From Nitrospirae bacterium CG2_30_53_67 (GTDB lineage: Bacteria; CG2-30-53-67): a stretch of 18,055 nt of DNA. This document shows positions 4,594 through 17,983 of the stretch, piece after piece. The DNA lies in NCBI GenBank assembly GCA_001873285.1, contig MNYV01000025.1, positions 1 through 18,055 on the forward strand, written 5' to 3'. Both the position numbers and the translations under genes were made by a program. The number at the start of each line of letters is the position of its first letter. Position 1 is the stretch's first letter. The notes under the pieces were generated by a model. The model saw nothing but the letters and a program-made list of their open reading frames with translations. It made no database searches and was not told the origin of the DNA.

Positions 4594-4800
4594 TCATCTC
4601 CAAAAGAGTGGGTGAAAACATAAGGGTTCAAGGGGTCAAGGATTCCAGGGGTCAAGTGAAGTGCTTTTTAAAAACTCAAGGGTCCGAGGGGTCAAGGGGC
4701 TTAGGGTCCAAGTGAAAAGCATAGAAAAAAACTGAAGGGCAACAGAAATCAAAAAACCACTTGAACCCTTGAACCCTTGAACCCTATAACCCTATCTTGT
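4594..4800 (+). repeat. Dispersed intergenic element, copy R1 (right end degenerate)
   Basis: The copy starts with the family left end (TCATCTCCAAAAGAG, then TGGGTGAAAA). It continues with GGGGTCAAGG-type iterons and ends in three head-to-tail TTGAACCCT units near 4761-4787. The recognisable right terminal repeat (ACTAAATGGGAGA in other copies) is missing or eroded, and the array runs almost to the cdaA start at 4822. The core between the two iteron blocks differs from the R2, R3 and R4 cores. The element fills the folP-cdaA gap. Confidence 0.8.
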
Positions 4801-4821
4801 ATTTTAAAGAAATGGTTCCGA

Positions 4822-5625
4822 ATGTTTTCTGAAATCTCCGACGTCCTCCACTGGTTTCTGCGGACATTTCGATGGCAGGATGCCGTCGACATCCTGATCG
4901 TTGCCTACGTCCTTTACGAGCTGTTCAAGCTTTTTAAAGGGACCCGGGCCCTTCAGATGATCATCGGGCTGACCATCCTGGTCATGGCCTCGTTCATTTT
5001 CCAGTGGGCAAAATTTTATACCATCAGCTGGCTGCTGAATAACCTGTGGGCCTATCTGGCCCTGAGTGTGATCATTCTTTTCCAGCCGGAAATCCGCAGG
5101 ACCCTGGCCCATATGGGGCAGAGCCCTGTTTTTTCATCCATGAACCTGGAATCGGAGGCCAAGACCATTGATGAACTGGTCAAGGGATCCGTCACCATGG
5201 CGAGCCGGAAGATCGGGGCGCTGATCCTGCTTGAACGTGAGCACAGCATCGAAGGCCTGATTGAGATGGGGACGCCCATTGACTCGAAGTTGTCCAAGGA
5301 GATCCTCCTCAGTATCTTCCTCCCCTATTCCCCGATTCATGACGGGGCCGTGATCATTCAGAAGGACAGGATCAAGGCCGCGGGATGTTTCCTCCCGCTT
5401 ACGCTGAATCTCAACCTGAGCAAGGAGCTGGGGACCCGTCACCGGGCGGCCATGGGCATCACTGAAGAGACCGATGCCGTGGTGATCGTGGTCTCGGAAG
5501 AGACAGGGACCATTTCCGTGGTGATCGGCGGGAAGATTACACGGGACCTGGATGCGCAGGCCCTTCGCCGTGTCCTGACCAATGTGATGCGGCCGGTTAA
5601 GAAAAAAACAAGGAAATGGTTTTAA
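4822..5625 (+). CDS. cdaA: Diadenylate cyclase CdaA (c-di-AMP synthase)
   Basis: CdaA makes cyclic di-AMP from two ATP at the inner face of the membrane. From the ATG at 4822 the protein has 267 residues. Three hydrophobic segments (roughly residues 20-90: AVDILIVAYVLYELF, ALQMIIGLTILVMAS, LWAYLALSVIILF) precede the DAC domain. The catalytic DGA motif is HDGAVII with D174, and the GTRHRAA motif begins at G204; both hallmarks are intact. A longer open frame begins inside the upstream tandem repeat, so I reject that start. The chosen ATG has only a weak AAAGAAATGG upstream. cdaR and glmM follow, the conserved cdaA-cdaR-glmM neighbourhood linking c-di-AMP to cell-wall precursor supply. Confidence 0.95.
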   Translation: MFSEISDVLHWFLRTFRWQDAVDILIVAYVLYELFKLFKGTRALQMIIGLTILVMASFIFQWAKFYTISWLLNNLWAYLALSVIILFQPEIRRTLAHMGQSPVFSSMNLESEAKTIDELVKGSVTMASRKIGALILLEREHSIEGLIEMGTPIDSKLSKEILLSIFLPYSPIHDGAVIIQKDRIKAAGCFLPLTLNLNLSKELGTRHRAAMGITEETDAVVIVVSEETGTISVVIGGKITRDLDAQALRRVLTNVMRPVKKKTRKWF

Positions 5626-5628
5626 AGA

Positions 5629-5817
5629 TCATCTCCAAAAGAGTGGGTGAAAAAGAAGGGGTCAAGGGGCCAAGGATTCAAGGGGTCGAGTGAAGTGCTA
5701 AAAACATCAGCGGTCAAGGGGTCCAGTGTTTTTCTCTGGAGATTTTGCTTGCGTTTAAGTATTTCACTTGAACCCTGGAATCCTCGACCCCTTTTTACCC
5801 ACTAAATGGGAGAAGAA
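5629..5817 (+). repeat. Dispersed intergenic element, copy R2 (inverted core)
   Basis: The left end, starting 3 bp after the cdaA stop, matches R1 (TCATCTCCAAAAGAG, TGGGTGAAAA). The right end, TTTTTACCCACTAAATGGGAGA, reads as an imperfect inverted copy of the left end. The core at about 5719-5790 (CCAGTG... TCTCTGGAGA... TTTCACTTGAA) matches the reverse complement of the core in R3 and R4. The element fills the cdaA-cdaR gap. Confidence 0.88.
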
Positions 5818-5852
5818 CCATAATTAAAAAAGGGATCAGCGGAGTGAAAGGC

Positions 5853-6773
5853 ATGAGGCGCTTTAAGGATATATTGATCAAGGATTTGTGGATCAAGGCA
5901 TTCTCCATTATTTTTGCTTTTTTCCTCTGGTTTTCCATCGTCGGGGGAGAAAGCGCTGAGGAGTTTTTTACCATCCCGCTGACCATTGTGAAAATCCCAG
6001 AGAATATGATCATCAAAAACGAACTGGTTGATTTCGTGAATTTGCGGGTGCGCGGGCAGAAGGCCGTGCTCAACTCGCTGAATGCCAAACAGATCACCGT
6101 GGAACTCAACCTCAAGGATGCAAAAGAGGGTGAAAACGTCATCACCCTCTTTCCGGAAGAAGTCAAACTCCCTGAAGGGCTCTCCGTTGTAAGGATCAGT
6201 CCTTCACAGGTCACGGTCGAGCTGAGCAAACTTGCCGAGAAAGCGCTCCCGGTGGAACCCGATTTCTTCGGGACCGCAGCCAAAGGCTACGAGATCGGGA
6301 GGGTTACGGCCACGCCGCTCAAGGTAGAGGTGATGGGGCTGAAGGAGGCGCTCAAGGATCAGGAAAAGATCAAGACCGCGCGTATAGATCTCTTCGGAAA
6401 GAACCGGTCTTTTTCCGTGGAGGCGGACCTGAAGCCCCCCAGTGGAAATGTCTATATCAAAGGGCCCAAAAAGGTCCAGGTTGACGTGGAGATCCTGGAA
6501 AAGTCAGGCCGGCGTGAATTCCGGAATATACCGGTGAAGGGGTCCGGCCCTTCGGACGGGGCGGTTTTTCATCCGGATAAGGTGACACTGGTCATCGCCG
6601 GGCCGGAGGCCAAACTTACGGATATGCTCCCTTCGATGATCGAGGTCGTGATCCAGGAGCCGGAGACACCGGGCGCCTTTGATCTGGAACCGGAGGTGAC
6701 CTTGCCCGAGGGGTTTCAGGTGATCCGGATCAGTCCTGAAAAAATACGGGTCAAGGTGGAGAAGCATTCCTGA
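5853..6773 (+). CDS. cdaR: YbbR/CdaR-domain protein, likely regulator of CdaA
   Basis: CdaR proteins are anchored by one N-terminal membrane helix and carry several extracytoplasmic YbbR repeats; in Firmicutes they modulate CdaA. Here a membrane segment (AFSIIFAFFLWFSIVGG) lies near residues 14-30. At least three to four YbbR-like beta repeats follow, seen in the recurring pattern of a proline-rich strand and an RISPSQVTVEL or RISPEKIRVKVE ending. With this ATG the protein has 306 residues. GGAG lies 8 nt upstream; a GTG at 5844 in the same frame is an alternative start. Its place between cdaA and glmM supports the assignment, though whether it activates or restrains CdaA in this lineage is unknown. 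Confidence 0.88.
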   Translation: MRRFKDILIKDLWIKAFSIIFAFFLWFSIVGGESAEEFFTIPLTIVKIPENMIIKNELVDFVNLRVRGQKAVLNSLNAKQITVELNLKDAKEGENVITLFPEEVKLPEGLSVVRISPSQVTVELSKLAEKALPVEPDFFGTAAKGYEIGRVTATPLKVEVMGLKEALKDQEKIKTARIDLFGKNRSFSVEADLKPPSGNVYIKGPKKVQVDVEILEKSGRREFRNIPVKGSGPSDGAVFHPDKVTLVIAGPEAKLTDMLPSMIEVVIQEPETPGAFDLEPEVTLPEGFQVIRISPEKIRVKVEKHS

Positions 6774-6777
6774 ACCG

Positions 6778-6964
6778 TTCTATATATACAGAGCCTCATA
6801 AACCAACAACGTCATTCCCCGGCCCCCGATCGCAGTCGAGGGCAGGCTTGATCGGGGAATCCATGGTTCGACAAGCTCACCATGACAATTGTCACCCTGA
6901 GCCTGTCGAAGGGTGGATTGTCCGGTCGAGCCGGACAATGACAAACTGATTAACCTCTGTCACT
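6778..6964. repeat. Intergenic palindromic repeats before glmM
   Basis: The 191-bp gap between cdaR and glmM holds three inverted-repeat structures. A GTCATTCCCCGG stretch near 6813 is answered by TCGGGGAATCC near 6853. A 44-bp imperfect palindrome at 6867-6910 runs from TTCGACAAGCTCA to TGAGCCTGTCGAA around a TGACAATTGTCA centre. A hairpin near 6918-6940 pairs TTGTCCGG with CCGGACAA. Sequences of the CCTGAGCCTGTCGAAGG type are a common extragenic repeat in many proteobacterial genomes. Confidence 0.75.
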
Positions 6965-6985
6965 GTGTATAAAGGAGGGTCAATC

Positions 6986-8347
6986 TTGGGCAAGTTGTTT
7001 GGAACCGACGGCGTCCGGGGTGTTGCCAACGTCTACCCCATGAACGTGGAAATGGCGATCAAGCTCGGGAGGGCGGCTTCACATATTTTCAAGAAGGCGC
7101 GCTCCGGCCGGCACAAGGTCATCATAGGCAAGGATACGAGACTTTCGGGATACATGCTGGAGAGCGCCCTCATGTCAGGAATCTGCTCCATGGGCGTGGA
7201 CGTCCTGCTGGTCGGTCCCCTCCCCACGCCGGCCATTGCCTTCATGACTAAAAATCTCCGGGCGGACGCGGGTGTGGTGATCTCCGCCTCGCACAACCCC
7301 TATCAGGACAACGGGATCAAGTTTTTCTCTCCCGATGGGTACAAACTCCCGGATGAAATAGAAGAGGAGATGGAGTCTCTTATTTTTTCCAATGATATTG
7401 ATTCCATCCGGCCCACGGCCGAGGAGGTGGGAAAGGCCTTTCGGATTGATGACGCGGAGGGCCGCTATGTTTCTTACATCAAAACAAGCTTCCCCAAGGA
7501 GTATGACCTCTCCGGGATCAAGATCGTGATTGACTGTGCCAACGGCGCGGCGTACAAGGCCGCCCCGCTGGTCATGCAGGAACTCGGCGCCGATATCGTC
7601 GTCTTGAATAACCGGCCCGACGGATGCAACATTAACAAGGACTGCGGGTCGCTCCATCCTGATGTGATCATAAAGGCCGTTCTGGACCATGGCGCCGATA
7701 TCGGCATCTCCCTGGACGGAGATGCAGACCGCGTGATCTTTTCGGATGAAAAGGGGAGTGAGGTCAACGGCGACCCCGTGATGGTCTTCTCCGCCCTGGA
7801 CATGAAAAGCCGAGGGGTCCTGCGTGAGAATACCCTGGTGACCACGGTGATGAGCAACATGGGGTTGGAACTGGCGCTGAAAAAACAGGGGATACGGGTC
7901 GTCCGGACGCAGGTCGGAGACCGGTATGTGGCCGAGGAGATGATCCGGGGAGGATATAATCTGGGCGGGGAGCAATCCGGTCATATTCTATTTATGGACT
8001 ACAATACCACGGGAGACGGGATCCTGTCGGCCCTGCAGGTCCTTTCCATCATGAGGAGGTCCGGAAAGAGTCTCTCCGAACTCGCTTCGGTCATGACCAC
8101 GCTTCCGCAGATCCTCAAGAACGTCAGGGTCAGGGAGAAAAAGGATTTTGAAAGCCTGCCGGACGTCAAGAAGGCCATCCATTCCGCAGAGCAGAAACTT
8201 AAAGAGGAGGGGAGGGTTCTGGTCAGGTATTCAGGCACTGAAAACAAGGCCAGGGTCATGATCGAAGGACCGGATTCGGATTCGATCCGGGATATGGCCG
8301 AAAGCATAGCGGGAGAGATCGAGAAGGCGATTGGTGTTAAAAATTAA
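6986..8347 (+). CDS. glmM: Phosphoglucosamine mutase
   Basis: GlmM interconverts glucosamine-6-phosphate and glucosamine-1-phosphate on the way to UDP-GlcNAc for peptidoglycan and LPS. The 453-residue protein begins [14 protein letters not shown]. The phosphoserine loop is [16 protein letters not shown] with S102, the metal loop DGDADR is at 244-249, GGEQSGH is the sugar-binding motif, and [12 protein letters not shown] is the C-terminal phosphate loop. All are intact. I chose the TTG at 6986 because AAAGGAGGG sits 6 nt upstream and the N-terminus then matches the family; a GTG at 6965 would place that ribosome site inside the gene. It follows cdaA-cdaR; in some bacteria GlmM binds and inhibits CdaA. 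Confidence 0.97.
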
Positions 8348-8349
8348 AG

Positions 8350-8551
8350 ATTATCTCCAGAAGAGTAGGTGAAAACATCAGGGGTCAAGGGGTCAAGGAT
8401 TCCAGGGGTCAAGTGAAGTGCTTTTCAAGAAATTGAGGGTCCGAGGGGTCAAGGATTCAAGTGAAATACAGAAAAGCAAGCAAAGTCTCCAGAGAGAAAC
8501 ACTGGACCCCTTGAACCCTTGAACCCTTTTTATCCACTATATGGGAGAAGA
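8350..8551 (+). repeat. Dispersed intergenic element, copy R3
   Basis: Starts 3 bp after the glmM stop with the family left end (ATTATCTCC, GAAGAGTAGGTGAAAACAT). It carries GGGGTCAAGG iterons, a core with GTGAAATACAGAAAAGCAAG and CTCCAGAGAGAAACACTGG, two TTGAACCCT units, and a right end TTTTTATCCACTATATGGGAGA that is an inverted match to the left end. The pdxJ start is about 57 bp further on. The core is nearly identical to R4 and lies in the opposite orientation to that of R2. Confidence 0.9.
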
Positions 8552-8607
8552 AACAAAATTGGGATTTCGATATTCGGATTTCAGCCTATTTTAGAAAGGG
8601 GTTTCTT

Positions 8608-9321
8608 GTGACACGACTGGGAGTGAACATTGATCACGTGGCCACGATCCGTCAGGCCAGGCTGACCACGGAACCGGATCCGGTTGCGGCCGCGCTCATT
8701 GCCGAGCTGGCCGGAGCAGACGGCATTACCATCCACCTGAGAGAGGACCGCAGGCATATCCAGGACCGTGATTTAAGTTTGATCCGTCGTGTGATTCATG
8801 TCCGACTGAACCTGGAAATGGCGGCAACCGAGGAGATCATCCGGATCGCACTGAAGGAGAGACCGGATGCGGTCTGTCTCGTTCCTGAAAAGAGGGCGGA
8901 ACTCACGACTGAAGGCGGACTGGATGTGGCGGCCCATGGGAAGTCCCTGAAGCAAGGGATCCGGAGGCTGAGGCATAAGGGGATCGAGGTCAGCATCTTC
9001 GTGGATCCCGATCCCAGACAGGTGATCGCCTCAAAGGAGTTGAACGCTGATGCCGTGGAGATCCATACCGGCGCCTATGCGGAGGCCAAAGGCAAGGCGC
9101 AGGCCCGGGAACTGGAGCGTATCCATCGGGCCGTGCAGACTGCCCGTGAGATCGGGATCAGCATCCATGCAGGGCACGGGCTGACCTACCGGAACGTCAG
9201 CCGGATCGCCGCCATACCGGAGATCGAGGAGCTGAACATCGGACACAGCATCATATCCAGGGCGGTGCTGGTAGGGCTGGAACGGGCTGTCAGGGAAATG
9301 AAGGCGCTGGTGAACCCTTGA
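8608..9321 (+). CDS. pdxJ: Pyridoxine 5'-phosphate synthase
   Basis: PdxJ closes the ring in the DXP-dependent vitamin B6 pathway, joining 1-deoxyxylulose-5-phosphate to aminoacetone phosphate. The 237-residue protein keeps the family landmarks at near-canonical numbers: N7, D9, H10 and R18 in [15 protein letters not shown]43 and R45 in ITIHLRED, H50, and E70 in [28 protein letters not shown] and [17 protein letters not shown] complete the barrel. It starts with GTG preceded by AGAAAGGGG. The last codons (AAC CCT TGA) sit in a TTGAACCC-type repeat unit, so the extreme C-terminus may have been remodelled. The usual neighbour acpS is absent downstream. Confidence 0.96.
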
Positions 9322-9355
9322 ACCCTTTGTCAACTTAATTGACGATGAGCCGAGT

Positions 9356-10918
9356 ATGAAGGTCGCGAATGCTGAACAGATGAAGAGACTGGACCGGGAG
9401 GCCGTCAGGGAGTACAGGATCCCCGGAATCGTGCTTATGGAGAACGCCTCGCTGGGGGTGATCCGTTCCATGGAGACGAAATACGGCCGGCTTTGGGGGA
9501 GGTCCGTGCTGATCTTCTGCGGCAAGGGGAACAACGGCGGGGACGGGATGGCCTCGGCCAGACACCTTGCAAACCGAGGGGCGCACGTCCAGGTGGTTCT
9601 CTTGGGAGAACCTGAGAGCCTCCAGGAAGACGCAGCAGCCAATTACGCCATCTGCGAACGCATGAAGATCCGAATCCATCCGGTGGTCTCTCCAAAAGAT
9701 TTTTCTTCGGTTTCACGCTGGATCAGTAAGGCCGATCTTATCCTGGATGCGATCCTGGGAACCGGGATCGTCCCGCCGGTCCGCGGGCTGGTGGAACAGG
9801 CAGTACGCCGGATCAACCGGTCCGGTAAACCGGTGATCTCCGTGGACCTCCCCACAGGCTTGAGTGCGGACTCTTCTGAAATCGTCGGGGAGGTGGTTCA
9901 TGCGGATTTGACTGTCACCTTCGGTCTTCCCAAAATATCCCTGGTCCAGTATCCCTCATTGTCGAATGCCGGAGAGGTCCACGTGGCGGACATCAGCCTT
10001 CCTTGGGAACTCGTGGACCAGGCTGAGATCCCAGTGGAACTTCTCGGTGAGGAGATTCTGCAGGCCCTTCCGCCGAGGAGGCCCGATCTTCACAAGGGGG
10101 AAGCAGGCCGGGTCCTTCTGATCGCAGGATCCAGGGGAATGCCTGGAGCGGCGGTAATGGCCGCCCTATCCTGTTTCAGGTCCGGCGCCGGACTGGTCTA
10201 TGCCGCCGTGCCCGGGCGGGTGCGGGAGTTTTTTCATAAACAGTTGGTAGAGGGGATCACCGTCACCCTTCCGGAAACCGAGCGGGATCATCTGAGCCTC
10301 TCCGCTCTGCCGGATATCCTCGCTGCGGCCCGGGGGAAAAAGGCGGCGGTGATGGGGCCCGGAATCGGCCTTGACCCGGCAACGGGCGATATGGTACGAT
10401 CCCTCATTCAAAAGATCCGCATCCCCATGATTCTGGACGCCGACGCCCTCAGCCATCTGGCCGGGAATACGGCCCTACTCAGGAAAATCAGGATCCCGGT
10501 GATCCTGACCCCGCATCCCGGGGAGATGGCCAGGCTGACAGACGTCTCGGACAAGGTTTTAAAGACGCGCCGCGTGGATCTGGCCCGGGAATTCGCCGCG
10601 GCGTTTGGGGTGATTCTGGTTTTAAAAGGGGCCAGGACCGTGATTGCGGATCCCAAGGGCCGGGTCTGGATCAATCCAACGGGAAATCCGGGCATGGCCA
10701 CGGCCGGGACCGGGGACGTGCTCACGGGGATGATCGCCGGGCTTGCGGCCCAAGGGATGGCGCCTCTGCAGGCTGCGCTGGCCGGTGTTTTTCTGCACGG
10801 GCGCTGCGGGGACCGAGCCGCCGCACACCGGGGTAAACGAGGACTTCTTGCCAGAGACCTGATCCGTGAGATACCGAATGTCTTGAGGACCGTTGATGAC
10901 AAGAAAAGGACCCGATGA
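9356..10918 (+). CDS. nnr: Bifunctional NAD(P)HX epimerase / ADP-dependent NAD(P)HX dehydratase
   Basis: This two-domain enzyme repairs hydrated NADH and NADPH. The N-terminal YjeF_N-type half epimerises the R and S forms: GKGNNGGDG at 56-64, ILDAILGTG, then VISVDLPTGLSADS. The C-terminal ribokinase-like half dehydrates S-NAD(P)HX with ADP: HKGEAGRVLLIAGS, VMGPGIGL, MILDADALS, ILTPHPGEMARL, LVLKGARTVI, and the catalytic loop NPGMATAGTGDVL with D454. At 520 residues it has the normal fused length. It begins 34 bp after pdxJ with a poor ribosome site. Both halves look intact. Confidence 0.95.
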   Translation: MKVANAEQMKRLDREAVREYRIPGIVLMENASLGVIRSMETKYGRLWGRSVLIFCGKGNNGGDGMASARHLANRGAHVQVVLLGEPESLQEDAAANYAICERMKIRIHPVVSPKDFSSVSRWISKADLILDAILGTGIVPPVRGLVEQAVRRINRSGKPVISVDLPTGLSADSSEIVGEVVHADLTVTFGLPKISLVQYPSLSNAGEVHVADISLPWELVDQAEIPVELLGEEILQALPPRRPDLHKGEAGRVLLIAGSRGMPGAAVMAALSCFRSGAGLVYAAVPGRVREFFHKQLVEGITVTLPETERDHLSLSALPDILAAARGKKAAVMGPGIGLDPATGDMVRSLIQKIRIPMILDADALSHLAGNTALLRKIRIPVILTPHPGEMARLTDVSDKVLKTRRVDLAREFAAAFGVILVLKGARTVIADPKGRVWINPTGNPGMATAGTGDVLTGMIAGLAAQGMAPLQAALAGVFLHGRCGDRAAAHRGKRGLLARDLIREIPNVLRTVDDKKRTR

Positions 10919-10920
10919 AA

Positions 10921-10957
10921 CCACAGAGTGCACAGAGAAACAGTCTGTGTTCTGTGG
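10921..10957 (+). terminator. Imperfect stem-loop after nnr
   Basis: CCACAGA plus CACAGA pair with TCTGTG plus TTCTGTGG across a short bulge, starting 2 bp after the nnr stop codon. A TTTTAATAAA stretch follows a few bases later. It could end nnr transcription, or it may be a copy of a common CCACAGAG-type extragenic repeat. Confidence 0.4.
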
Positions 10958-10997
10958 TCAGGTTTTAATAAACGTTCAACCAGAAAAGGAGGAAAAC

Positions 10998-11184
10998 ATG
11001 AAAAGGATTCTTGCTTGCGCAGTCTTTTTAACTCTACGGGTCGGCCGCGCTCTCTTATTATCCGATGAAGAATCTTGGGATTTCGGCCGGATACCGGATG
11101 ATCCGCCTGGATGTGTCCGAGGATGGAGACAGTGCATTTCTTAAACTGGGCGGTCCGACCCTGTCTGCGACTCTTCGATTCTAA
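10998..11184 (+). pseudogene. Remnant of an outer-membrane beta-barrel protein gene
   Basis: A strong ribosome site (AAAGGAGGAAAAC) precedes an ATG and a signal-peptide-like start, MKRILACAVFLTL. The frame then breaks near 11035-11041. In another frame, from 11041, the codons read SAALSYYPMKNLGIS, then AGYRMIRLDVSED, then LKLGGPTLSATLRF and stop at 11182-11184. Alternating strands with a terminal aromatic Phe are typical of the last strands of outer-membrane barrels of the outer-membrane-protein/YfaZ kind. Signal peptide and barrel tail are kept but the middle (probably 100 or more residues) is gone and the halves are out of frame, so this is a decayed gene. The exact family is not identifiable. 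Confidence 0.65.
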
Positions 11185-11240
11185 AGAAGCTTATGAATGA
11201 TTTGATGGATGTTTATTTTAAAGAAAAGAGGTGAGGAACA

Positions 11241-11690
11241 TTGCTTGCAGCCAAAGATCTGATGACCCGGGACGTGATCACCGTGGGGCCCGACATGCCG
11301 GTCAAGGAACTGGCCAATCTGTTGGTCGAGCGCCATATCAGCGGCGCCCCCGTGGTTGACCGGGAGGGGGCGCTGGTCGGGATCATTACCGAGAAGGATC
11401 TGATCGAGAGTAATAAAAACATTCACATCCCGACTGTGGTGACCCTCTTTGACGCGGTGATCTATCTTGAAAGCGAAAAACACTTCAAGCAAGAGCTGAA
11501 AAAGATGGCCGCTTCCAAGGTGGAGGATATCATGGTCCGGAAGGTGGTCACCATCGGAGAAGAGACCTCCATCCGTGAGATTGCCGCGATCATGTCGGAA
11601 CGGGGCAAGGGTCTGCTTCCCGTGGTCCGGGATGGGAAGCTGGTCGGGATTGTGGGCAAGGCCGATATCGTCCGGTCCATGGCCGGATAA
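11241..11690 (+). CDS. CBS-domain pair protein
   Basis: The 149-residue protein consists of two CBS motifs and little else. The first is at about residues 5-55 (DLMTRDVITVGPDMPVKEL, then GAPVVDREGALVGIITEKDL). The second is at 93-147 (VEDIMVRKVVTIGEETSI, then LLPVVRDGKLVGIVGKADIV). Such stand-alone Bateman modules bind adenosine nucleotides such as AMP, ATP or c-di-AMP and regulate partners; the ligand cannot be read from the sequence. It begins with TTG preceded by AGGTGAGGA. Its location in a cluster with a c-di-AMP synthase makes a c-di-AMP link worth considering, but that is only an inference. Confidence 0.88.
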   Translation: MLAAKDLMTRDVITVGPDMPVKELANLLVERHISGAPVVDREGALVGIITEKDLIESNKNIHIPTVVTLFDAVIYLESEKHFKQELKKMAASKVEDIMVRKVVTIGEETSIREIAAIMSERGKGLLPVVRDGKLVGIVGKADIVRSMAG

Positions 11691-11700
11691 ACAAAGATCC

Positions 11701-11744
11701 CTCTCGGTGCGTCACCCTATTGATGAACAGGACCACTTAGGCGG
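11701..11744 (-). repeat. Right-end fragment of CCTAAGTGG-tipped MITE-like family (M2a)
   Basis: CTCTCGGTGCGTCACC followed by CTATTGATGAACAGG and ACCACTTAGGCGG matches the right end of the complete element at 14443-14615. It also matches, inverted with one mismatch over 41 bp, the segment 12861-12901. The left part of this copy is missing; the CBS gene ends 10 bp upstream. It lies directly in front of tsaE. Confidence 0.85.
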
Positions 11745-11768
11745 AAACCATTTCAGGGCGACAGGAGA

Positions 11769-12278
11769 ATGTCTGCCGGATTCATGATGCAAGCGGTTCT
11801 GCGTTCGTCTTCCGAGGAGGAGACTCTTTTGATCGGAGAACGCCTCGGCGGGCGCCTGGCCGGAGGCGATATCCTTGCCCTTGCAGGGAGGCTTGGCGCA
11901 GGAAAGACCGTTCTGGCCAAAGGGATCGCCAGGGGGCTCGGGATCAGGGAAGAGGACGTTGTGAGCCCCACCTATATGCTGATTCATGAAATTTCAGGGG
12001 CCGTGAAGCTCTTTCACGTGGACCTGTACCGTGTAACCGATATGGACGACCTGGAGAATGCCGGGTTCTACGACGTCTTCGATCAAGATGCCGTGACCGT
12101 CATTGAATGGGCTGACCGCTTTCCGGGCGCGGTCTCCGAACCGTATTTGATGATCAGGCTGCAATGCGTGGACGAGAATATCAGGGAGATCTTCATAGAG
12201 CCTCATGGGGAGAGGTTCAGGCGTCTTCTAAACCTCTTGGTGAAAGAAATTCCGTCTCACCTGATCTACAGGACATGA
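11769..12278 (+). CDS. tsaE: tRNA threonylcarbamoyladenosine biosynthesis ATPase TsaE
   Basis: TsaE is the P-loop ATPase that works with TsaB and TsaD to place the t6A modification at A37 of ANN-decoding tRNAs. Walker A is GRLGAGKT at 40-47. SPTYMLIHE near 66-74, FHVDLYR near 82-88 and VIEWADRFP near 111-119 are the standard TsaE motifs, all intact. The start is unsure: AGGAGA lies only 1 nt before the ATG at 11769, and ATGs at 11784 and 11787 would give a shorter N-terminus closer to the family. The gene begins just after the M2a repeat fragment. DUF507 genes follow. Confidence 0.93.
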   Translation: MSAGFMMQAVLRSSSEEETLLIGERLGGRLAGGDILALAGRLGAGKTVLAKGIARGLGIREEDVVSPTYMLIHEISGAVKLFHVDLYRVTDMDDLENAGFYDVFDQDAVTVIEWADRFPGAVSEPYLMIRLQCVDENIREIFIEPHGERFRRLLNLLVKEIPSHLIYRT

Positions 12279-12311
12279 GGGCGCGGGCCTCTTCCGGGAA
12301 AGGTATGGGGT

Positions 12312-12590
12312 ATGCTGTCGGAAGATGAGATCAGAAGTCTCTCAAAGGAGATGAGAAGAGTCCTCTCTGACGTCCGGGGTCTGGAGTTCCTCCGGCCTGT
12401 TGAAGAGATCGAGGAGAAGATCTCCTCTGTTCTTTCGCAGAACATGCAGGAGGAAATCAAGCTCAATGCCGAATGTGACAAGATCATGGATCAATATGCC
12501 GGGCAGATCGAGCGGGGGGATGCGGATCCTCACAAATTGTTTTCAATGATCAAGCGGAAACTGGCCCGGGAGAAGGGGGTTGTACTTTGA
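12312..12590 (+). CDS. DUF507 family protein, first of a pair
   Basis: A 92-residue, highly charged, helical-looking protein that begins LSEDEIRSLSKEM and contains GLEFLRPVEEIEEKI, then a DKIMDQY stretch and KLFSMIKRKLA. This pattern fits DUF507, a family of unknown function known mainly from Desulfobacterota, Nitrospirota and Aquificota, usually as adjacent paralogues. No catalytic residues or membrane segments are visible. Its stop overlaps the start of the second copy by 4 bp (TTGA), so the two are very likely co-translated and may form a heterodimer. Confidence 0.85.
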   Translation: MLSEDEIRSLSKEMRRVLSDVRGLEFLRPVEEIEEKISSVLSQNMQEEIKLNAECDKIMDQYAGQIERGDADPHKLFSMIKRKLAREKGVVL

Positions 12591-12868
12591 AACTCTCGGA
12601 AGACCGTATCTCACACCTTTCACACCTGATTTTGGATCAGATCCTGGAGCAGGGGCTGATCTTCATGAAGGAGGATGATGAACCTGCCGCACGGGCGGAA
12701 ATCAGGAAAGTTTTTGTAACCGAACTCCAGAAGGAAGAAGCGCTCGACCAAAAAATCCGGAACAAGATCGTTTCCTACAAGAGGACGATCCCTGAAGGGA
12801 GCAATGAATGGCATATCCTTTATCAACGCTTCCAGCGGGAAGAGAAGACCCGGAAGGGATCCGCCTAA
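12587..12868 (+). CDS. DUF507 family protein, second of a pair
   Basis: A 93-residue paralogue of the preceding gene, beginning KLSEDRISHLSHLI with ILEQGLIF and a C-terminal IRNKIVSYKR and EGSNEWHILYQRF. It is soluble and charged, with no recognised active site. The start is a TTG inside the overlapping stop of the first copy, with GGGGG upstream. The last codons (GCC TAA) lie in the tip of a repeat copy (CCGCCTAAGTGG), so the stop codon belongs to the element edge. The last residues may therefore differ from those of relatives. Confidence 0.85.
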   Translation: MKLSEDRISHLSHLILDQILEQGLIFMKEDDEPAARAEIRKVFVTELQKEEALDQKIRNKIVSYKRTIPEGSNEWHILYQRFQREEKTRKGSA

Positions 12869-12995
12869 GTGGTCCTGTTCATCAATAGGGTGACTCACCG
12901 ACCTGCCTGCCGTCAGGCAGGATCGTAGTGCGGTCTTATCTCCGCGCTCGGCGGAGCGCATACCCCATGTGGTACGCCGCAGGGATTGGTTCTCC
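12861..12995 (+). repeat. Left-end fragment of CCTAAGTGG-tipped MITE-like family (M2b) with hairpins
   Basis: CCGCCTAAGTGGTCCTGTTC followed by ATCAATAGGGTGAC is an inverted match, one mismatch in 41 bp, to 11704-11744. The following 100 bp carry a hairpin at 12902-12921 (CCTGCCTG, CAGGCAGG) and another at 12944-12959 (GCGCTC, GAGCGC). No right end is seen before the minus-strand gene at 13004. The hairpins lie between converging genes and could end transcription from either side. Confidence 0.8.
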
Positions 12996-13003
12996 AACGG
13001 GGC

Positions 13004-13555
13004 TTACTTCACGGAATTTTTCTTGTTATAGCCGACCAGGGCGATGGCGAACCGGTCGTCCTGGAAAGGATGCATGTCGGGGAAACGCTCAAAAAGCCAG
13101 CCGTTGAAGATTTCATTCCCTTCTTTCAGGACCGTCACCTTCAAGGCCGGATTCTTGGTCTCGTTTGAGAGGGACGTAATGGCATTCTGGTCCATGGAGA
13201 ACTGGGGCAGGAAGTCTCCGGCCTTGATGATCAGGCTGCTTCCCGGAATCGGGTAATCCGTATGCAGGGGAATCGTCTGATCCACGCTGGTCTTTTGGGT
13301 CTTATCCTCGATCCGGATGACCGCGGATTCCCACTGGCCTGCAACGCCTTCAGGCACGGAAACGGTCTTGGGGGTCTGGGATGGCGTGCCTTGATGCATG
13401 GGCATGGCCGGTTGTTGAGGGAGATCGGCTGAAGGTTGTGCCTGAGTTTGCGTCTGCGGCTGCGGCGGGGCCGCCGTCTTTTTCTGTTCACAAGCCGTGA
13501 AAGTAATCAAAGGAATTGAAACAAGGACCATTAAAAACCACGCAGATCGTTTCAT
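13004..13555 (-). CDS. DUF2155 domain lipoprotein
   Basis: From the start at 13555 (AGGAGA upstream) the protein has 183 residues. A lipoprotein signal runs MKRSAWFLMVLVSIPLITF into TAC, with C22 as the likely lipidated residue. A Pro/Gln-rich linker spans about residues 27-62. The C-terminal DUF2155 domain shows GQWESAVIRIEDK, then a FLPQFSMDQNAITS stretch, ALKVTVLKEGNEIF, and GWLFERFPDMHPF near the end. The domain has no known biochemical role; proteins of this type are found in Geobacter-like bacteria. It is divergent from the metallopeptidase gene, with only 56 bp between starts. A Met 22 codons upstream is in frame but would disrupt the signal peptide. Confidence 0.8.
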   Translation of the reverse strand: MKRSAWFLMVLVSIPLITFTACEQKKTAAPPQPQTQTQAQPSADLPQQPAMPMHQGTPSQTPKTVSVPEGVAGQWESAVIRIEDKTQKTSVDQTIPLHTDYPIPGSSLIIKAGDFLPQFSMDQNAITSLSNETKNPALKVTVLKEGNEIFNGWLFERFPDMHPFQDDRFAIALVGYNKKNSVK

Positions 13556-13611
13556 TGTTCTTCTCCTAAAAATGAAAGACGGAACCGTGCCTTTGGGCAC
13601 AATAAAAATGA

Positions 13612-14448
13612 ATGAAAACATTAATATATGGAAATGATAAAGTCAATATTTTTATTCCTCTGATTTTTGCGGGGATTTTATCTCTTTCACAGGGGTGCGC
13701 CGGTCTCAGACCCGCTCCCGGCTATGGTGAAGATGATTTCATGACCCATCCGGTCCTCGGGCTGCCCGTGACCATACGTTACCTTCCGGCGGATGCGCCC
13801 ATTCTCCCCCTTCTTGAGGAGACAATCCGTTCCGGCATGGAGAAGGCCGGGCAGTGGGGCGAGATCCGGACTCCCTTTACAGTGACCGTCTATCCGGACC
13901 ACGAGGCCTTGGAGAATGTCGTACAAAAAAGAGGGTATGGATGGCTCAAGGCCTGGGCCACGGAAGAGAAGATCTCCCTCCAGTCCCCGCGTTCCTGGAC
14001 GTTGTTCAGGGATCAATATCTCTTTGACCTCATGGCACACGAGTTGACCCATGTGATCCACTATCAGACCGCAGGAATCCAGGCCGGCCGTTCAGCGGAA
14101 AACGATCCCTTCTGGTTCAGGGAAGGGTTGGCGTCCGTGACCGCCGGGCAGGGGTACCGAAGGTATGGGAGGAAGGCGCTGCGGAGATTATTGCGGTCGG
14201 ACCCGAAGTTTGATCCCTTCTCTCCGTCAGAGAGGGATATCCGGGACCATGAGAAGCTGGTTTATTCATCAGCTCATTATCTGACGGTCTATCTGATCGA
14301 AACCTATGGTTCCGATCGGATCAGGGACCTCCTTCACAGGATCGCACTCGGGGATTCCTTTGAGACTGCCTTTGACAAGACCTATCCCGTTTCTTTAAAA
14401 CGGCTGAGGTCGGAATGGGAACCATGGCTGGAGATGAACGAACCTTAG
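13612..14448 (+). CDS. Gluzincin-type metallopeptidase (peptidase MA-like), probably exported
   Basis: The 278-residue protein has a hydrophobic N-terminal segment (VNIFIPLIFAGILSLSQGC), suggesting export; QGC could be a weak lipobox. The zinc site is HELTHVIHY with H143, E144 and H147. WFREGLAS follows, with E171 as the likely third ligand, the usual peptidase MA-like arrangement. The C-terminal half has SSAHYLTVYLIETYGSDRIRDLL, typical of that family. Substrate unknown. The start is the only good in-frame ATG, with a poor ribosome site. The stop codon TAG lies within the tip of the MITE-like element at 14443, so the native C-terminus may have been altered. Confidence 0.78.
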   Translation: MKTLIYGNDKVNIFIPLIFAGILSLSQGCAGLRPAPGYGEDDFMTHPVLGLPVTIRYLPADAPILPLLEETIRSGMEKAGQWGEIRTPFTVTVYPDHEALENVVQKRGYGWLKAWATEEKISLQSPRSWTLFRDQYLFDLMAHELTHVIHYQTAGIQAGRSAENDPFWFREGLASVTAGQGYRRYGRKALRRLLRSDPKFDPFSPSERDIRDHEKLVYSSAHYLTVYLIETYGSDRIRDLLHRIALGDSFETAFDKTYPVSLKRLRSEWEPWLEMNEP

Positions 14449-14615
14449 TGGTCCTATTCGTAAATACGGTCGCATTCGATTGCCGTAGGGCGGCCTCCTC
14501 GGCGTTCCGCTCCTTGCGACGTACCGCAGGGGGTACGCCTCAGTCGCGCGCCTTGATGAGTCCGCCCTACGGCACTCTCGGTACGTTACCATACTTACGA
14601 ACAGGACCACTTAGG
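14443..14615. mobile_element. Complete MITE-like element, CCTAAGTGG family (M2c)
   Basis: The 173-bp element runs from CCTTAGTGGTCCTATTCG to an inverted CGAACAGGACCACTTAGG, so the terminal inverted repeats extend over about 27 bp with few mismatches. A perfect inner inverted repeat pairs TGCCGTAGGGCGG (14481-14493) with CCGCCCTACGGCA (14562-14574). It encodes no protein and folds back nearly end to end. It supplies the stop codon of the upstream metallopeptidase gene. Tips and subterminal sequence match M2a and M2b. Confidence 0.85.
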
Positions 14616-14691
14616 TTTATATTCGCTCGCTAATCCAGCCCCCAAGGGGCGGGGAATGCACTCGCTATACTTTTTCAGTTATGAAATTAGT

Positions 14692-14957
14692 ATTATCTCC
14701 AAAAGAGCGGGTGAAAACATAAGGGGTCAAGGGGTCAAGGATTCCAGGGGTCAAGTGAAGTGCTTTTCAAGAAATTGAGGGTCCGAGGGGTCAAGGGGTC
14801 AAGGATTCAAGTGAAATACAGAAAAGCAAGCAAAGTCTCCAGAGAGAAACACTGGACCCCTTGAACCCTTGAACCCTTGAACCCTTGAACCCTTGACTCC
14901 TGTGACCCTATGGTTCTTCAACCCTCGACCCCTTTTTACCCGCTAAATGGGAGAAGG
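14692..14957 (+). repeat. Dispersed intergenic element, copy R4 (longest)
   Basis: Left end ATTATCTCCAAAAGAG with CGGGTGAAAACAT; several GGGGTCAAGG iterons; a core with GTGAAATACAGAAAAGCAAG and CTCCAGAGAGAAACACTGG; five head-to-tail TTGAACCCT units near 14860-14898; and a right end TTTTTACCCGCTAAATGGGAGA that is an imperfect inverse of the left. The longer length comes from extra iteron units. The stretch 14616-14691 before it holds no recognisable gene. The mnmA start lies about 32 bp downstream. Confidence 0.9.
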
Positions 14958-14989
14958 ACCTGAAATTATTGATAAGGAAGACAGTACAC

Positions 14990-16884: not shown

Positions 16885-16983
16885 CTCGACATCAGGCTCA
16901 GTCCTTTAGTCACGAAACTCACATCAGGAAGATTCCGGTTGACTCCGAATGTCGAGAAGTGGTATGAAAAGATAGGAATCTGA
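16885..16983 (+). pseudogene. Gene-tail fragment, possibly of a DUF3368-like toxin (left copy)
   Basis: An open stretch without its own start reads LDIRLSPLVTKL, then TSGRFRLTPNVEKWYEKIGI and stops at 16981-16983. A near-identical tail is found at 17803-17895, with mostly silent or conservative changes, which suggests both were once coding. The pattern (IR..LV.KL..SG.F.L......I.G) resembles the C-terminus of the DUF3368 protein encoded between them (IRPMLVKLKESGFYL...). It is 27 bp upstream of the antitoxin start. The family assignment is tentative. Confidence 0.45.
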
Positions 16984-17010
16984 GTAATCTCTCTGCAGGT
17001 GGGGCCGCCA

Positions 17011-17262
17011 ATGGAAAGGATCATTCTGGAAATCCCGGAAGAAATACTCATCTCACTGAAGGAGACCCCGTCCGAGCTTTCGAGAGACATCCGGATGCTG
17101 GCGGCGGCCAAGCTCTACGAACTGGGCAAGCTCTCCTCCGGCAGGGCCGCCCAGCTTGCCGGCATGTCACGGGTAAGTTTCCTCCGTGCGCTCTCACAGT
17201 ACGGCGTTTCCATCCTGGCTCTGACTCCCGACGAACTCAGGCAGGATTATGAAAACGCGTAG
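17011..17262 (+). CDS. UPF0175 family protein, likely antitoxin
   Basis: The 83-residue protein starts MERIILEIPEEILISL and continues with LAAAKLYELGKLSSGRAAQLAGMSRVSFLRAL and YGVSIL, a helix-turn-helix arrangement typical of UPF0175. These small proteins are usually paired with DUF3368 or other PIN-like proteins and regarded as antitoxins that also bind DNA. AGGTGGGG lies 6 nt before the ATG; an in-frame GTG at 16999 overlaps that ribosome site. Its end overlaps the toxin gene by 14 bp, so the two are translationally coupled. A gene-tail fragment lies just upstream. Confidence 0.88.
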   Translation: MERIILEIPEEILISLKETPSELSRDIRMLAAAKLYELGKLSSGRAAQLAGMSRVSFLRALSQYGVSILALTPDELRQDYENA

Positions 17263-17743
17263 AACCGTAATTGTCAACACATCCCCCCTTTATTACCTGC
17301 ACAAGCTGGAATGCCTCGAATGTTTGGCCGGGCTGTACGGCAGCGTGACCGTCCCGGAGGCTGTAGCCGCTGAGCTTGAAGAGGGGAAGAAGGCCGGAGA
17401 GGGCGTTCCTTGTCTCAGCGACTACCCATGGATACACGTGAGAAAGGTCATGATTCCCGCCTTCATCAAGATGGTTCCCGACTTGGGGCGGGGCGAAGCT
17501 GAGGTTCTGGCGTTGGGAGCCGAAGAAGAGGATACACTTATCGTTGTTGATGACGGCCTGGCCAGGAGAATAGCAAAACTGCAAGGCTTCACGATCACGG
17601 GCACGGCAGGGGTCCTTTTAAAGGCGAAGAAGCAAGGGCTTGTCAAAGAGATCAGGCCGATGCTCGTGAAGCTGAAAGAATCGGGCTTCTATCTCAAAGA
17701 AGAGATCGTAAGCGAGATCCTCAAGATAGCAGGAGAGTCCTGA
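17249..17743 (+). CDS. DUF3368 PIN-like protein, likely toxin nuclease
   Basis: The 164-residue protein has a PIN-like layout: VIVNTSPLYYLHKL at the N-terminus (N10 where classical PIN domains have Asp), VPEAVAAEL at 35-43, LGRGEAEVLAL at 79-89 with E83 and E85, and LIVVDDGLARR at 97-107 with D101 and D102. TGTAGVLLKAKKQGL and the tail SGFYLKEEIVSEILKIAGE are characteristic of DUF3368. Members are thought to be RNases of toxin-antitoxin pairs with UPF0175 partners. It overlaps the antitoxin gene. Whether it is active given the Asn cannot be told from sequence alone. Confidence 0.87.
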   Translation: MKTRRTVIVNTSPLYYLHKLECLECLAGLYGSVTVPEAVAAELEEGKKAGEGVPCLSDYPWIHVRKVMIPAFIKMVPDLGRGEAEVLALGAEEEDTLIVVDDGLARRIAKLQGFTITGTAGVLLKAKKQGLVKEIRPMLVKLKESGFYLKEEIVSEILKIAGES

Positions 17744-17802: not shown

Positions 17803-17895
17803 CTTATCACGAAACTTCCCTCAAAAGGATTCCACTCAAAAAGATTCCAGTTGACTCCGAATGTCGAGAAGTGGTATGAAAAGGCACGAATCTAA
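17803..17895 (+). pseudogene. Gene-tail fragment, possibly of a DUF3368-like toxin (right copy)
   Basis: An open stretch lacking a start reads LITKLPSKGFHSKRF, then QLTPNVEKWYEKARI and stops at 17893-17895. Its last 59 bp (17841-17899) match 16929-16987 with about five differences, in the same orientation. Compared with the left copy it has a few extra codons. It lies 59 bp after the toxin stop. Probably a relic of a duplicated or exchanged toxin gene end. Confidence 0.45.
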
Positions 17896-17983
17896 GTAAA
17901 TTTTACATCTCATAGGCCGGTTTCAGTCTGCCGTCACGCAGATGGCCATATGAATGCGGTTATTCTTTGAGGATCGGATAAGA

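Follow-up and report, generated by a model that had tools for sequence, protein, structure and literature searches.

A miniature inverted-repeat transposable element (MITE) mobilised by ISL3 is known from Microcystis aeruginosa; it is 187 bp long, has GGCTCTTCG ends and 8-nt repeats, and occurs as 31-33 identical, recent copies (PMC11448079). In Porphyromonas gingivalis, the MITE BrickBuilt carries one array of a 23-nt unit and is present in 19 copies (PMC4596501). Here, a family of non-coding repeats with internal octamer arrays is described from an 18,055-nt stretch of Nitrospirae bacterium CG2_30_53_67 (contig MNYV01000025.1, forward strand, hereafter the window) and from the genome that holds it. 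The repeats are short, occur in many copies without a transposase, and show paired terminal inverted repeats (TIRs), a target site duplication (TSD) of fixed length and empty sites in a relative, as is characteristic of MITEs. The explanation that fits them best, and which is considered very likely as a whole, is an ISL3-type MITE family whose arms would recombine and whose orientation appears to be under selection.

A preliminary description of the window had reported four intergenic copies with TIRs and octamer blocks. Four copies were indeed present near the places given, and both features are real. Alignment of many copies set the true family ends at GGATCATCTCC... and ...GGGAGAAGAACC, which run six bases past TCTCC...GGGAGA (left GGATCA-TCTCC..., right ...GGGAGA-AGAACC), up to 6 bp further out than first placed. 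Each element has two asymmetric TIRs of about 28 bp; between them lie inverted octamer arrays and a core, none of it coding. The features in the window are as follows, where IRL and IRR are the left and right inverted repeats of an ISL3 element on plasmid CP114560.1.

4591..4793, + strand: copy 1, between folP and cdaA; left TIR, G-rich octamer blocks, type-2 core and TTGAACCC array.
5626..5819, + strand: copy 2, located between cdaA and ybbR; a complete element of 194 bp whose core has the common orientation (R).
8348..8554, + strand: copy 3, located between glmM and pdxJ; a complete element of 207 bp whose core is inverted (F).
14690..14960, + strand: copy 4, located upstream of mnmA; a complete element of 271 bp that has ten TTGAACCC-type units and an inverted core (F).
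14682..14689, no strand: left TSD of copy 4, TGAAATTA, 8/8 match.
14961..14968, no strand: right TSD of copy 4, TGAAATTA, paired with the left TSD at 14682..14689.
14690..14717, + strand: left TIR of copy 4, GTATTATCTCCAAAAGAGCGGGTGAAAA; family consensus GGATCATCTCCAAAAGAGTGGGTGAAAA, 25/28 to IRL.
14933..14960, - strand: right TIR of copy 4; consensus read inward GGTTCTTCTCCCATTTAGTGGGTAAAAA, 22/28 to IRR and 24/28 to IRL.
14721..14755, + strand: left-arm octamer array of copy 4, AAGGGGTC, 4.4 copies.
14858..14896, + strand: right-arm octamer array of copy 4, TTGAACCC, 4.9 perfect copies, complementing the left arm.
9311..9328, + strand: free TTGAACCC array of two units, 3' of pdxJ and outside the elements; the sister species has a longer array in the same place.

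The right end, at first thought common to all four, was found in copies 2, 3 and 4, while copy 1 stops past its TTGAACCC units at about 4793. Nor is one core shared by the four: the interior of copy 2 runs in the opposite direction to that of copies 3 and 4, and the core of copy 1 differs from those of the others. The TSD of copy 2 is indistinct (4/8) and that of copy 3 is AAAATTAA/AAAATTGG (6/8), its left target copy overlapping the glmM stop codon. A known structured RNA was rejected, since no Rfam family was matched by the window copies.

With ≤2 mismatches allowed, the host genome (2.36 Mb, 95% complete assembly, G000 below) yielded 108 left and 85 right ends, and reversed control patterns gave 0 matches; this rules out a family limited to the four window copies, as first reported. 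In the sister species from Hainich groundwater (H32-bin143-1, G001 below), the sole other genome of the genus, 39 end matches were found at ≤3 mismatches, corresponding to roughly 20 elements. No ends were detected in the other relatives searched apart from one chance match, and the TIR pattern was unmatched in viral contigs. A wide taxonomic spread was rejected: when about 85,000 species genomes were scanned for exact matches, in a collection where the phylum is represented by eight genomes, the sole hits were in G001, in two contigs of bin CG_2015-17_54_20 and in a contig labelled Omnitrophica. This last contig (PCVW01000054.1, L131) is 84% identical to G000 contig C81 over the trp genes, with an element between trpG and trpD, and most likely comes from a sister species and was misbinned. 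Elements measured 67-426 bp, too short for a transposase, and none is encoded inside.

Flank identity peaked at exactly 8 bp (0.70 vs 0.47 in shuffled pairs); it was at background at lengths 3-6 and 10-12, and slightly higher at 7 and 9. Among the 56 copies with long flanks, 25 kept 7-8 of the 8 bp, and the target consensus was A/T-rich (W W A A A/T T W N). Genes being called on the joined empty site, only 2 of these 56 insertions fell inside a gene, compared with 81% of random positions. Empty sites were present in G001 for copy 1 (C23:12767/12768) and for copy 4, where one similar copy of TGAAATTA is found. Copies 2 and 3 were also absent from G001, with other DNA at those sites. In the case of copy 2 (cdaA-ybbR), the site is occupied by a palindromic repeat, CCACAGAG...CTCTGTGG (G001 C23:13613-13652), which suggests an insertion hot spot between cdaA and ybbR common to both species; the same repeat lies in the window at 10914-10953. 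Other insertions were common to both species (L009/L096, L045/L098, C4+C66/L101 and L023/L143). Together, shared and unshared insertions indicate that the family was active before and after the species split, unless the unshared copies once existed in G001 and were lost there. Both further copies and empty sites, whose absence the preliminary description had named as grounds for dropping its proposal, were therefore found, and together with the 8-bp TSDs and the ISL3-matching ends they bear out its view of a non-autonomous mobile element with an internal minisatellite.

The ends point to the family of the mobiliser. G001 carries one ISL3 gene (NF033550, 203 bits), truncated and with an in-frame stop, whose upstream end is GGGTCTTCTCCCAAACGAGTGGGT. 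Its closest relative in a plasmid collection (76% protein identity over the aligned part) belongs to an intact element on the Ca. Manganitrophus plasmid CP114560.1. This element is complete, with 1390 bp, a perfect TSD (ATTCTTTT, 8/8), IRL GGATCTTCTCCAAAGTGAGTGGGT and IRR GGCTCTTCTCCCAAACGAGTGGGT. None of 2000 shuffles matched as well as the MITE ends do (25/28 for the left end to IRL, 22/28 and 24/28 for the right end to IRR and IRL), and unrelated ISL3 elements reached 14-19/28. MITE and plasmid element also have the same end asymmetry, TCTCC-A on the left and TCTCCC on the right. A covariation of T/C positions between both ends, seen in copy 4, was not general. No ISL3 relative was found in phages. 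An autonomous element with MITE ends in G000 was rejected, there being no left-right pair 0.7-3 kb apart, by eye, among the ends listed. A cognate transposase in the same genome is usual for ISL3-derived MITEs, and not required; here only the decayed, truncated copy in G001 was found, and neither ISL3 nor IS1595 transposases were detected in the 95% complete G000 assembly.

The arms proved to be inverted arrays of a single octamer (GGGGTCAA / TTGAACCC). The octamer blocks are true tandem arrays of one unit, which reads AAGGGGTC in the left arm and, inverted, TTGAACCC in the right arm; the number of units in the internal array is variable. After filtering, 61 complete copies from all genomes spanned 118-426 bp (the shortest copy recovered had 67 bp), and length correlated with total octamer count (rho 0.62). 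Coupled growth of the left and right arrays was rejected, as their correlation was only weak (rho 0.28, p = 0.03). The recognised core lay in one orientation in 48 copies and was inverted only in window copies 3 and 4, besides a left-left palindrome that can be read both ways; the inversion probably arose by a single flip followed by copying. Interiors differed strongly even at shared sites (217 bp in L009 vs 344 bp in L096), with modules that are present elsewhere in the genomes, a pattern suggestive of exchange between copies by recombination at their octamer arms. TSDs also flank a right-end variant that is longer by about 17 bases. Two palindromic copies with left ends face to face (G000:C47:6539-6816, L007, and G000:C154:6960-7240) look like products of recombination or copying inside the hairpin.

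As expected from inverted arms, the RNA of window copies 2, 3 and 4 folds far better than shuffled sequences (z = -6.6 for copy 4, -7.3 for copy 2 and -3.9 for copy 3). The sense strand was more stable than the antisense strand in 48 of 56 copies, by a mean of 9.8 kcal/mol, and had more G than C in 51 of 56.

The orientation of the copies relative to genes was strongly biased. Between tandem (co-directional) genes, 43 copies were sense and 2 antisense (n = 45), and all four window copies are sense. When partial copies were included, the sense direction was seen for 81 of 102 genes preceding the left end and for 76 of 91 genes following the right end. An initial crude caller of open reading frames had given weaker figures for partial copies and was replaced by a codon model. 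Since 78% of gene gaps are tandem by length, the frequency of tandem sites is ordinary, and it is the direction that is unusual. A second repeat family, with a copy in the window at 14443-14615, gave 7:6 under the same scoring (Fisher p = 0.0009). A narrow search of the open-access literature turned up no bacterial MITE reported to be biased towards the sense orientation.

In the proposed mechanism, an ISL3-family DDE transposase would once have moved copies in trans into A/T-rich 8-bp intergenic targets, as their ends and duplications suggest. Since the transposase is absent from the G000 assembly and decayed in G001, the copies are probably now stranded. The octamer arms would let them recombine, a process to which the observed changes in unit number, swapped modules and flipped core would be due. 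Copies inserted against transcription would have been removed by selection, because the hairpin that they add to the message would not be equivalent to the sense hairpin. Selection against the antisense hairpin is our preferred cause of the bias, held at about an even chance. One speculation is that an antisense copy, giving a C-rich, G-poor transcript stretch, could favour Rho-dependent termination. A broader proposal, which we regard as doubtful, is that the stranded family now serves across the genus as orientation-selected RNA hairpins immediately 3' of stop codons within transcription units, the sense form being tolerated or useful and the antisense form purged, while the octamer arms reshuffle and sometimes flip the interior.

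Several points weigh against this explanation. A clear TSD is not kept in about half of the copies, the genes were called with a home-made codon model, and mobility is deduced from sequence. The search of the genus found no intact autonomous partner, and the spacer between TCTCC and AGTGGGT is one base longer in the CP114560.1 element than in both MITE ends; the true mobiliser would therefore be a close relative and not that element itself. Finally, while the bias is plain from the counts, its cause could lie elsewhere, for instance in sequence context beyond 8 bp or in insertion that senses transcription. If the bias were made at insertion, the transposition complex would tell the left from the right end and read transcription, replication or a wider asymmetric target. 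The 8-bp target is in fact asymmetric (A at positions 3-4, T at position 6), and the left end commonly lies less than 20 bp from the upstream stop codon. However, a model of the 8-bp target expects 23.4 of 45 copies in sense, only 52%, against the 43 observed (P about 3e-12), so that target preference of this length was rejected as the cause. Replication strand was rejected as well, since sense sites occurred at either sign of coding-strand GC skew at third codon positions (GC3; 19 negative, 24 non-negative). We know of no ISL3 precedent for sensing direction at insertion, and this origin of the bias is judged rather unlikely.

The reading as an ISL3-type MITE must also be weighed against other accounts of what the repeats are. 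Their high copy number, intergenic location, hairpin formation and inverted arms would suit REPINs or REP-like palindromes spread by a RAYT (Y1) transposase, and the preliminary description had called them REP-like. That label found no support: paired, long asymmetric TIRs matching a DDE insertion sequence and 8-bp TSDs are traits of DDE transposons and not of REPINs, in which no TSD is expected, and the reading is very improbable (a RAYT gene itself was not searched for). Just as improbable is mobilisation by an IS1595-family transposase. This family has GG ends and 8-bp A/T-rich duplications, and one member is encoded in G001, but the flanks of this single gene carry no sequence resembling the MITE ends, G000 has none, and ISL3 ends match at 22-25/28; IS1595 was thus rejected as the mobiliser. 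A stronger alternative, which we still consider less than probable, holds that the octamer hairpin came first, as an element in its own right that predates the transposon ends and does not depend on them, and that it was captured between ISL3 ends. Both species do have octamer arrays and inverted octamer pairs that lack recognisable ISL3 ends, including in the same place 3' of pdxJ, and G001 has 88 array matches vs about 20 elements. Yet in some free arrays a decayed end or the same TTCACTTGA core edge is still present, and these could be old MITEs that have lost their ends. Free arrays and hairpins of this kind (e.g., L230, L295 and L300) often lie just 3' of a gene in G000 and G001, and were almost absent from 58 other genomes searched.

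Other repeats were observed in the window. The second family, also MITE-like (AACCTTAGTGGTCC...GGACCACTTAGGTT, 14443-14615), has at least 20 copies in G001 and related pieces at 11704-11745 and 12860-12985; its copy at 14443-14615 is absent from the orthologous G001 site, and its orientation to genes is unbiased. A palindromic repeat (...GTCACCCTGAGCCTGTCGAAGGGTG...) at 6810-6932, between ybbR and glmM, has several 95-98% identical copies in G001. Two genes at 16999-17743, of the UPF0175 and DUF3368 (PIN-like) families, are likely a toxin-antitoxin pair and are bracketed by an 89% direct repeat (16924-16987 and 17836-17899).

Compared with known systems, the combination of features had been thought to belong to no named kind, which holds only in part, as minisatellite MITEs such as BrickBuilt (PMC4596501) and ISL3-mobilised MITEs (PMC11448079) have each already been published. 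The family resembles the Microcystis MITE in being non-coding, multi-copy and hairpin-forming, with GG.TCTTC-type ends that match ISL3 and 8-nt direct repeats. Whereas the copies of that MITE are identical and recent, those of the present family, about 100 in number and 67-426 bp long, have diverged; they contain octamer arrays, have mosaic interiors and show a bias to the sense of transcription, and no resident partner was found. With BrickBuilt it has in common a minisatellite inside an intergenic MITE of limited host range. Neither the 23-nt unit nor the P. gingivalis ends were found here, the unit being an octamer; instead of one array, there are two of the same 8-nt unit, inverted so that they form the arms of a hairpin, between ISL3-type ends. 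The CP114560.1 element shares the terminal repeats, the GG start, the AGTGGGT subterminal motif and the 8-bp A/T-rich duplication, whereas it is autonomous, encodes its transposase in 1390 bp and has a spacer one base longer between its end motifs.

Like the present family, the mosaic repeats BOX and BIME are modular, lie between genes, form hairpins and vary in their internal units, but we know of no flanking 8-bp duplication or ISL3 ends in them. The direction of a bacterial MITE is usually thought to matter little, and the orientation bias is the unexpected part of these results. A bias of 43:2 beside an unbiased family in the same genus makes it testable whether the hairpin affects expression or the transposase reads transcription. 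In addition, with inverted minisatellite arms a MITE may become a mosaic, its interior being replaced by exchange between unchanged ends at an unchanged site, and ISL3-type MITEs are extended to a phylum with eight genomes in the collection searched.

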